From Herbiconiux sp. (GTDB lineage: Bacteria > Actinomycetota > Actinomycetes > Actinomycetales > Microbacteriaceae), in assembly GCF_023264855.1 (NCBI RefSeq), contig NZ_JAHFUW010000017.1, forward strand, positions 1-64,000: 64,000 bases of DNA, written 5' to 3'. The translations under genes and the position numbers were made by a program. Below are positions 9,124 through 11,739 of this stretch, in pieces (positions within the stretch are counted from its first letter, which is position 1; each line of letters opens with the position of its first letter). Below the pieces are notes generated by a model. It had not been told where the DNA came from. It saw only the letters and a list, made by a program, of their open reading frames with translations, and did no database searches.

Positions 9124-9825
9124 ATGACAGCGTCCGGAGCCCGCGTGCGGCGTGCCTGCGCCCTCGTGCGCCTCGCCGTCGCGGTACTGGGGGCCGTGGC
9201 GCTGATCTTCGACTTCGACTACGTGCTCGGCTTCAGCACCTTCTCGACGGTGAACTACTTCAGCTACTTCACCTTCCAGTCCAACCTGCTGAACGTGATC
9301 GTGCTCGGCGTCTCGGGTGTGCTGCTGCTGCGCGGGCACGTCGTGGGCGGCTTCCTCAGCAGCATCCGCGCCACCTCCACCACCTACGTCGTGGTGTCGG
9401 GGATCGTGTTCGGCCTGATCGTGTCGCAGGCCGGCAGCCACCACTACCGGATCGACGTGCCCTGGTCGAGCCAGATCCTGCACTTCTGGATCCCGTCGTA
9501 CATGCTGCTGGACTGGCTGATCGGGGTCGGCCGGCGCCGGCTGCTCTGGCGGGTGGTGCCGCTGGTGCTGATCTTCCCGGTGATCTGGGGCGTGTTCACC
9601 CTCATCCGCGGCTCGATCGTGCGCTGGTACCCGTACTTCTTCCTCGATCCGGCTCAGGTGAGCGGGCCGCTGGAGTTCGTGATGTACTGCGGCATCGCGC
9701 TGGGCCTGTTCGCGGGCATCACCGCCGGTCTGGTGGCGCTCAGCCGGCTGAGGCCGTGGGGGTGGCTGTCGCTCGCAGCGACTCGTCGACGAACGGCTCG
9801 AGACTCACCAGCGCCGCCTGGATGA
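9124..9825 (+). CDS. Pr6Pr family integral membrane protein
   Basis: 233 residues with about six hydrophobic segments. The conserved front YFSYFTFQSNLLNVIVLGVS and the central HFWIPSYMLLDWLIG match Pr6Pr/FAR-17a-AIG1-like membrane proteins of actinobacteria, whose function is not established. The 3' end overlaps the convergent flavoprotein gene by 86 bases on the opposite strand; the overlap encodes a basic tail after the last membrane helix. Confidence 0.8.
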   Translation: MTASGARVRRACALVRLAVAVLGAVALIFDFDYVLGFSTFSTVNYFSYFTFQSNLLNVIVLGVSGVLLLRGHVVGGFLSSIRATSTTYVVVSGIVFGLIVSQAGSHHYRIDVPWSSQILHFWIPSYMLLDWLIGVGRRRLLWRVVPLVLIFPVIWGVFTLIRGSIVRWYPYFFLDPAQVSGPLEFVMYCGIALGLFAGITAGLVALSRLRPWGWLSLAATRRRTARDSPAPPG

Positions 9826-11242
9826 AGTCGGCGTCGCTCTGCTTGCCCGCAACGGGCACGTCGTCGGCCGCGGTCAGCCCGATCAGGATCGGCTGGCCGG
9901 TTGACGGGAGCAGGTTGATCCACTCCGCGATCTCGGAGGTCTCGTCGATCACCGAGAGCACGGTCGCCTCGGTCGACCAGAACGGCTCGTCGAAGCGCAG
10001 CCAGAGCTGTTCGAGCGTGCCCATCCCGATGGCCTCGATCGCCGACTGCACGGCATCGGGCAGCGGGGGATCGAACTCGATCGTGCCGGCCTGCAGCACT
10101 CCGATCGGCGCGGTCACGACCACCCGGTCGATCGACAGCGATTCGCCGGTGCCGAGCCGCAGGCTCACCCCCTCGTCGTCGTAGGCGATGCGGATGACCG
10201 TGGCCGAGAGCAGCACGTCCAGGTCGTCGATGGCGTTCGTGACGACGGTCGCCAGTCCGCCCACGATCAGGCCGGTGCCGTCCACCAGGCCCGCCTTGTC
10301 CAGACCGTAGCTGCCCGAGAGCCGGAAGGCGTTGGCGCCGTACCGGCTGGCGATCGTGGTGTCGAGGTAATGCGTGAGCTCGTCCGAGGGCGAGACGCCG
10401 TCGGCGGCCGGTTCGGTGGAGAGCTCCGAGGCTCCGGATGCCGACAGCGCCGACGCGAGCGAGGAGTCGGCGGGCTGGGCCTCGGCCCAGGCCACGGCGG
10501 CGGCCACCGCATCCGGACCCGTGGTCGACGGCGGCACGGTCGCGCCCTCGGCGGTGCGGATCTCCCGACTCGCATCGAGCCTCAGCGTGTCGACGTCGTT
10601 CTCGAGCAGCAGGTCGTCGAGGCCGTCGCCGGAGACGGATGCGGCCCCGAGCTCCACCGGGAACGGCCAGCCGGCCTCGTCGCGCGTGTCGATGCGGCCG
10701 CCGACACGGTCCCGCGCCTCGATCACCACCACGTCGAATCCGGCGTCGGCCAGGGCGCGCGCGGCGGTGGCACCGGCCAGGCCCGCGCCGATCACCGCGA
10801 TCCGCTCGTCGGGCTCGGCCAGGGCCGCCAGGCGTTCGGCGACCGCGGCACCCGAGGTGGCGGCTCCGATCACCGTGCCCGGGTATTCGCTCGAGGCGGC
10901 TTCGCCGGCGAGGAACACACGGCCGGCGACGGTCTCCCGCAGAGTGGCTCGATCGGCGGGGGTGGCTCCCACCGGCGTCATGCTGAACGAGCCGAGCGCG
11001 AACGGATCCGTGGCCCAGGCGCTCCGCAGGAAGGCGGCCGGCTGCGGCACGGGGGACACCGGAACCGGTGTCGGCGTCACGGTCGGGGTGGGAACCGGTT
11101 TCAGCGGGGTGCAGGCGGCCAGCGCGGCCAGCGACACCGCGGAGACCGCGCCTGCCAGGAAGGTCCGTCGCTCAAGTGCCAATTCTGCGGTGCCGTTTCT
11201 CGTGGTGAGTGGGGGATGCCCCGGTACCTCCACGTTAGCCAA
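9740..11242 (-). CDS. Tat-exported lipoprotein flavin amine-oxidase-like protein with rearranged domain order
   Basis: 500 residues from TTG at 11242 (an in-frame TTG at 11182 is also possible). Residues 21-44 form a Tat-type signal (ERRTFLAG at 24-31) ending in a lipobox LAAC (Cys44), followed by a Pro/Thr linker. Residues 76-135 then hold WATDPFALGSFS and FLAGEAASSEYPGTVIGAA, motifs that in flavin monoamine oxidases lie at the C-terminus. Only after these comes the N-terminal Rossmann motif IGAGLAG (151-157) and RVGGR (179-183). The protein ends with the segment that usually precedes WxxDP. The family is clear (FAD-dependent amine oxidase); this looks like a circular permutation. The 3' end overlaps the convergent membrane-protein gene. 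Substrate unknown. Confidence 0.85.
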   Translation of the reverse strand: MANVEVPGHPPLTTRNGTAELALERRTFLAGAVSAVSLAALAACTPLKPVPTPTVTPTPVPVSPVPQPAAFLRSAWATDPFALGSFSMTPVGATPADRATLRETVAGRVFLAGEAASSEYPGTVIGAATSGAAVAERLAALAEPDERIAVIGAGLAGATAARALADAGFDVVVIEARDRVGGRIDTRDEAGWPFPVELGAASVSGDGLDDLLLENDVDTLRLDASREIRTAEGATVPPSTTGPDAVAAAVAWAEAQPADSSLASALSASGASELSTEPAADGVSPSDELTHYLDTTIASRYGANAFRLSGSYGLDKAGLVDGTGLIVGGLATVVTNAIDDLDVLLSATVIRIAYDDEGVSLRLGTGESLSIDRVVVTAPIGVLQAGTIEFDPPLPDAVQSAIEAIGMGTLEQLWLRFDEPFWSTEATVLSVIDETSEIAEWINLLPSTGQPILIGLTAADDVPVAGKQSDADFIQAALVSLEPFVDESLRATATPTASAG

Positions 11243-11295: not shown

Positions 11296-11739
11296 ATGAT
11301 CACTCCAGAGCTCGCTCGTGCCCTGCGCACCGCCGGGCTGCGCTGGCATCCGCGCTCCGGTGACGCGTTCCGGATCGAGACCGCCGACGGCTCCGACGAC
11401 GTGTTCACCGTGAGCGAGATGACGGTGGAGGTGCACGAGTTCCCCACGGGCCGGCAGATCGGTTTCAACGGCACCACGGAGTGGGCCCTCGACTCGGTGG
11501 CGATCGCCGACACGCTGTGGCTGCCGCACGAAGCGCAGTTGCGCGAGCTGCTTCGCGACGGGTTCCGCCGCCTGGAGGTGTCGAACGGCCTGTTCGTGGT
11601 GGTCGCAGTGGTGCGGGCCGTCGAACGGGCCTACGAGGCCGAGACCGCCGAAGACGCCTACGGCGAGGCGGTGCTCGATCTGATCGTGCAGACGCTCGTG
11701 ACCGACACGGACGGCGCGGATGTCGGCCCTGCGGAATAG
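11296..11739 (+). CDS. Conserved protein of unknown function
   Basis: 147 residues, soluble, acidic C-terminus, no signal or membrane helix. Starts MITPELARALRTAGLRWHPR; contains TVEVHEFPTGRQIGFNGTTEWALD and a helical C-terminal half. It is divergent from the flavoprotein and lies ten bases before the aldo-keto reductase, so they may be co-transcribed. I do not recognise a family. Confidence 0.7.
   Translation: MITPELARALRTAGLRWHPRSGDAFRIETADGSDDVFTVSEMTVEVHEFPTGRQIGFNGTTEWALDSVAIADTLWLPHEAQLRELLRDGFRRLEVSNGLFVVVAVVRAVERAYEAETAEDAYGEAVLDLIVQTLVTDTDGADVGPAE

Follow-up and report, generated by a model that had tools for sequence, protein, structure and literature searches.

A stretch of 64,000 nucleotides from Herbiconiux sp. 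(contig NZ_JAHFUW010000017.1; hereafter the window) carries a gene for a flavin amine oxidoreductase whose parts stand in a rearranged order along the chain. The explanation that best fits the evidence, to which we give a probability of about 85%, is that the product is a naturally circularly permuted member of the fold of monoamine oxidase (MAO), polyamine oxidase and LSD1, exported as a lipoprotein by the twin-arginine translocation (Tat) pathway and acting on an amine-type substrate. To our knowledge, few large cofactor-binding enzyme folds are circularly permuted in nature. The superfamily is well known. Among the matches listed from the open-access literature, taken by titles and the openings of abstracts, there is no natural permutation of an amine oxidase, and neither a polyamine oxidase tree (PMC7576179) nor PMC12224317 mentions permutation.

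Order and conservation of the permuted chain

The usual order of the family, which is not strictly defining, places the Rossmann part at the N-terminus and the flavin adenine dinucleotide (FAD) block at the C-terminus. Because this C-terminal block comes first in the window protein, we file it as a permuted variant and not as an ordinary member of the Pfam family Amino_oxidase (PF01593). More specifically, WATDPFALGSFS and FLAGEAASSEYPGTVIGAA are followed by IGAGLAG (residues 151-157), RVGGR, the remainder of the protein and a tail rich in proline and threonine, at the positions given in an earlier note made from the letters of the window alone; the frame of 500 residues is unbroken, as that note had also stated. 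PF01593 matches the protein with an E value of 4.3e-54, in three stretches that run along the gene as profile positions 368-442 (E 3.4e-14), 1-50 (6.1e-13) and 192-365 (4.9e-25), so that the Pfam search proposed in the note returns the permuted order. All 22 sequences of the alignment of the window protein with its relatives match the profile. A second C-terminal block at the true C-terminus, which the note had named among the observations that would refute its reading, was looked for by Pfam and by inspection of the sequence and is absent from the window protein. Tools that assume a domain order split such proteins, as the three separate Pfam stretches illustrate; in NCBIfam, none of the best 25 of 87 matches reaches the cut-off.

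Pairwise comparison gives the same picture. Aligned with phmmer to LSD2 (4gu0), residues 64-140 of the query fall on 699-775 of the chain, near its end at 776, while residues 146-185 fall on 337-376 and residues 325-426 on 528-629. Restoring the canonical order of the pieces, a comparison also suggested by the note, fuses two of the LSD2 stretches (179-421 on 528-775) and lifts the score from 109 to 122 bits; the score of LSD1 (2dw4) rises from 95 to 109, and that of spermine oxidase (7oxl) is nearly flat, at 103 and 104. Judged by these alignments, the motif order is far beyond chance. Among the matches listed from two sequence searches of the PDB, 60 sequences in each, no best stretch spans the junction. 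The distance from the tryptophan of WxxDP to GxGxxG is 73-81 residues, and 76 in most members measured; in sequence, the junction is a linker of nearly constant length. The cut site is placed, on the aligned sequences, in the loop that leads in canonical proteins from the 'ALxxLxPF' helix to the WxxDP strand, because most chains end right after this helix or after an extra tail.

A scan with one genome per species yielded 21 related loci, of which 20 come from genera of Microbacteriaceae or from a 'Microbacteriaceae bacterium' and one (L005) from a 'Corynebacterium-like bacterium B27'. Identity to the window protein is 63-78% in eight of them (seven Herbiconiux and L005) and 44-50% in the others, and the alignment carries the same order through the junction in 21 of 21. 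A profile of the permuted form matches as one colinear stretch in 76 of 249 family genomes, by a table count that includes the window's own. The number of related bacteria with this arrangement marks it as an enduring rearrangement of natural origin, as opposed to an error of sequencing. The expectation that orthologues would have the same order is thereby confirmed, and it extends to other families and classes.

The FAD motifs (GxGxxG, the acidic end of strand 2, GGR and the GE...GT block) are invariant or nearly so in the clade of the window protein, and the GE glutamate of the moved block is invariant in 60 of 60 rows. The predicted structure has a predicted template modelling score (pTM) of 0.80 over the whole chain, with a local confidence (pLDDT) below 50 at residues 473-481 of the model (492-500 of the open reading frame, ORF). 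Residues 125-471 of the model (ORF 144-490) match LSD1 in structural comparison, which places the protein in the family fold. From homology and the confidence of the model, the moved block may contact FAD, and the invariant FAD motifs with the confident fold point to a probably functional enzyme.

From the homology, the order and its conservation, the signal motifs and the confident model of the family fold, we infer the following scheme. The break in the chain would lie in the loop that connects the last substrate-part helix with the WxxDPxxxGS strand, and a short linker would join the old C-terminus to the old N-terminus. The moved block would fold back on the Rossmann part and complete the FAD site. 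Tat would then export the folded, FAD-loaded protein, which would sit in the membrane as a lipoprotein and most likely pass hydride from an amine-type substrate to FAD, from which electrons would leave to O2 or another acceptor.

Among known systems, LSD1 and LSD2 (KDM1A and KDM1B) and the polyamine and spermine oxidases resemble the window protein in sequence over all parts, in the FAD motifs and in the fold (model residues 125-471); the window protein differs from them in its permuted order, its export and lipobox motifs, and a glutamine in place of the flavin-side lysine. The circularly permuted GTPases cpRAS and YRG (PMC2430557) are likewise natural permutations of a widespread fold, and the distribution of cpRAS is scattered; their fold and function are unrelated to those of the window protein.

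The flavin-side lysine and competing explanations

Some observations weigh against a permuted, exported amine oxidoreductase. A structural aligner bound to chain order gave matches that reach only model residues 113-472 and left the moved block unplaced. No linked catabolic operon that would hint at a substrate was found among the window neighbours (an alpha/beta hydrolase, a Pr6Pr protein, a protein without family and an aldo-keto reductase). Finally, the flavin-side lysine of the family is missing from the window protein and from 38 further rows among the 59 scored in its clade, so that amine-oxidase chemistry is not assured. This last feature, Gln412 in the window protein, is absent from the earlier note. 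Lysine occupies the position in 36 of 37 canonical rows and, outside the window's clade, in 18 of 20 permuted rows, with arginine in the remainder; the 59 rows within the clade divide into Lys 20, Gln 10, Thr 10, Arg 7, Val 7, Ser 2, Leu 2 and Ala 1. A quick tree of 64 rows requires seven changes between lysine and another residue. Since a lysine described as nearly universal has been lost repeatedly, there are many natural variants with which to study how these flavoenzymes control their reactivity with O2.

According to PMC12224317, enzymes of the superfamily transfer hydride from the amine to FAD, after which the flavin is oxidised again. Reaction with O2 in bona fide oxidases is boosted by a lysine next to flavin N5, which that study describes as nearly universal but not defining and which most of its dehydrogenases also keep. 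In MAO A, the excerpted text of PMC8009472 reports that K305Q has the activity of the wild type, that kcat is 200-fold lower in K305M and 100-fold lower in K305S, and that K305M can be re-oxidised by quinones. By analogy with K305Q, the glutamine of the window protein is compatible with oxidase activity, and members with threonine, valine and similar residues may be dehydrogenases with a different acceptor. Against this dehydrogenase reading stands the finding of PMC12224317 that, where no cytochrome gene lies nearby, Tat-bearing members were mostly oxidases. A CxxCH motif in an open frame of at least 70 codons occurs at 12 of 61 loci scanned, the window lying outside the scan and the frames not being examined further. 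The most cytochrome-like case of the 12 is L080, where an open frame near the permuted gene has a cytochrome c-like CSACHSANG motif. Among the window neighbours compared with Pfam or NCBIfam, there is no cytochrome match. NicA2 and Pnao of Pseudomonas putida S16 belong to the same superfamily and are Tat-exported dehydrogenases with a Tat signal peptide; they use a cytochrome c encoded alongside (PMC12224317 and PMC9396064), whereas none is recognised for the permuted gene, and they retain the lysine (PMC12224317), unlike the window protein.

The fall of lysine to 20 of 59 rows, against its near constancy in canonical and other permuted rows, together with the seven changes, would also suit a permuted pseudo-enzyme that, at least in the window's clade, keeps the fold and FAD but oxidises no amine and acts as a flavin-dependent lipoprotein for binding or sensing. 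The FAD motifs are nonetheless invariant, and glutamine is the very residue that leaves MAO A K305Q as active as wild type (PMC8009472, excerpted text), so this explanation is improbable. A good deal less credible is the proposal that the N-terminal block is an independent domain added by fusion and not the enzyme's own C-terminal part. The sequential structure comparison, in leaving the block unplaced, speaks for it; however, the block matches just those PF01593 positions (368-442) that the C-terminus lacks, the GE glutamate of the block is the same in all 60 clade rows, the joined length is nearly constant, and the pTM of 0.80 extends across the whole chain. An assembly error, frameshift artefact or chimaera mimicking permutation is rejected with near certainty, since the order and junction are shared by all 21 relatives fetched from other genomes and by 76 of 249 genomes of the family, some on a single contig (G080, G034), and the draft state of the window's genome (97 contigs) is all that was found in its favour.

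Distribution and origin of the permuted form

Returning to the permuted amine oxidoreductase, the remaining matches within the family are of several kinds. The permuted order lies in two pieces in four genomes (G221, G206, G219 and G038), in G221 in two frames, and pieces of the permuted gene stand on two contigs in G012. Most other family matches start at profile position 100-132 or later, as expected of canonical members. The G221 copy (L106, minus strand), divided over two frames (model 1-306 and 376-471), looks broken or mis-sequenced. A match in G208 (C22:131050-132438) covers profile positions 24-467 with inner stops, four TGA and one TAA, and is neither clearly permuted nor canonical. 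At E 1e-20 nothing in G155, which belongs to the window's own genus, matches the permuted form; the gene may have been lost within the genus.

Outside the family, searches covered the window's phylum, in samples of order, class and phylum that have family genomes in common. A profile of the junction only matches in 4 genomes from other families of the order (396 searched), in 14 from other families of the class (394 searched) and in 7 from other classes of the phylum (396 searched). The block precedes the Rossmann part in 24 of 25 outside loci fetched, some of them clipped by contig ends or short frames; L087, from G1083 among the 7 genomes of other classes, has the canonical order. L082-L085, permuted sequences that form a divergent group in other families of the order, have no lipobox and have 'GMTHGA' replacing the usual 'GTVxGA', and L083 possibly starts directly at the moved block. 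Eight plasmid records match, none over 80% of the query, and among the matches listed from viral contigs (42 loci) none spans the junction.

Two trees bear on how often the permutation arose. In a first tree of 77 rows, the permuted rows need 4 changes and form a single clade in 0 of 200 bootstrap trees; in a second of 81 rows, with more canonical relatives, they again need 4 changes and form a single clade in 0% of 200 bootstraps. In both trees they fall into about four clades interspersed with canonical ones. Constraint to one clade gave p values in the approximately unbiased (AU) test of 0.076, or 0.226 without L082-L085, in the first tree, and of 0.186 and 0.276 in the second, so that one clade is not rejected in either. 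Because no bootstrap tree joins the permuted rows and yet the AU test keeps one clade, neither a single nor a multiple origin is shown by these sequences. Canonical order is likely ancestral on the tree, which was rooted at its midpoint, because more distant canonical rows fall outside.

In the textbook model of circular permutation, a canonical parent is duplicated in tandem, and the copies are fused and trimmed; no duplication intermediate was seen among the sequences examined. Five canonical relatives from other genomes of the phylum (L144, L155, L205, L212 and L214) belong to the same broad clade and have the RR motif and lipobox pattern, with the Rossmann part first and the C-terminal block last, unlike the window protein; L144 and L155 also keep the flavin-side lysine that it lacks. 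Canonical relatives of this kind are plausible parents. Three further canonical sequences (L204, L210 and L211) have RR and a cysteine in the N-terminus, yet are unflagged by the pattern. The permuted form is widespread in the phylum beside unpermuted relatives with the same type of export signal, which allows parent-like proteins to be set directly against permuted ones in folding, loading of FAD and export by Tat. A bolder proposal, tentative and with the odds well against it, is that the fold was permuted more than once at the same loop within one phylum and that the window's clade, having repeatedly lost the lysine that speeds reaction with O2, became a dehydrogenase feeding a membrane or extracellular acceptor such as a quinone.

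Export signals and gene neighbourhood

The calls of Tat signals and lipoboxes are simple patterns on open frames, made without a signal-peptide predictor. As such patterns, the twin-arginine motif and lipobox cysteine that the earlier note had placed at the new N-terminus hold up, being found together in 59 of 60 rows of the window's clade and marking the protein as a putative Tat-exported lipoprotein. In the alignment of the 21 relatives, the first arginine is nearly invariant and the second invariant. Elsewhere among permuted groups, the combined pattern occurs in 3 of 4 (L071, L072, L107 and L108), 2 of 2 (L068 and L086), 2 of 10 (L070 and L073-L081, the other 8 having RR only) and 0 of 4 (L082-L085); canonical rows have it in 2 of 37. 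Since L082-L085 are without a lipobox and L083 may begin at the moved block, permutation does not always go with export. The signal part of L013 sits in a different frame. The true start of the window gene is probably the TTG at 11182 rather than 11242, because in 12 of 21 relatives an ATG, as the nearest upstream start codon found by script, lies at most 4 codons ahead of the twin arginines; the choice leaves the permutation unaffected.

Table 1. Features of the permuted gene and its convergent neighbour in the window.
Feature	Position	Strand	Basis
Coding sequence, permuted flavin amine oxidoreductase	9740..11242	-	500 residues as listed
Twin-arginine motif RRTFL, signal peptide, residues 25-29	11156..11170	-	motif pattern
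Lipobox LAAC, Cys44 of the long start	11111..11122	-	motif pattern
Moved C-terminal FAD block, residues 64-140, now N-terminal	10823..11053	-	PF01593 368-442; LSD2 699-775
Rossmann start (GAGLAG, ARDRVGGR), short linker to moved block	10628..10807	-	PF01593 1-50; junction lengths
Remaining FAD and substrate domains	9785..10627	-	PF01593 192-365; ORF residues 144-490 match LSD1
Gln412 codon, position of the flavin-side lysine	10007..10009	-	aligned to LSD2 Lys; residue table
P/T-rich tail, new C-terminus	9743..9784	-	pLDDT <50 in ORF 492-500
Pr6Pr family membrane protein, convergent, overlaps the 3' end by 86 bases	9124..9825	+	NF038065, E 8.6e-38

The window and all 21 relative loci have a Pr6Pr gene in tail-to-tail arrangement with the permuted gene. 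In 51 family genomes checked, with coordinates read by eye, a convergent adjoining Pr6Pr gene was present in all 22 with the permuted gene, at gaps of up to about 1 kb; Pr6Pr is common in the family anyway, because 27 of the 29 checked genomes without the permuted gene also have it. None of the outside loci L070-L094 had a Pr6Pr match next to it, and the term was not found in the open-access literature searched. The wider neighbourhood is mostly common to L001-L008. A divergent gene at 11296-11739 encodes a protein of 147 residues, without a Pfam match at E 0.001 or an NCBIfam match at E 0.01, and this adjoining gene is also present in L001-L008.
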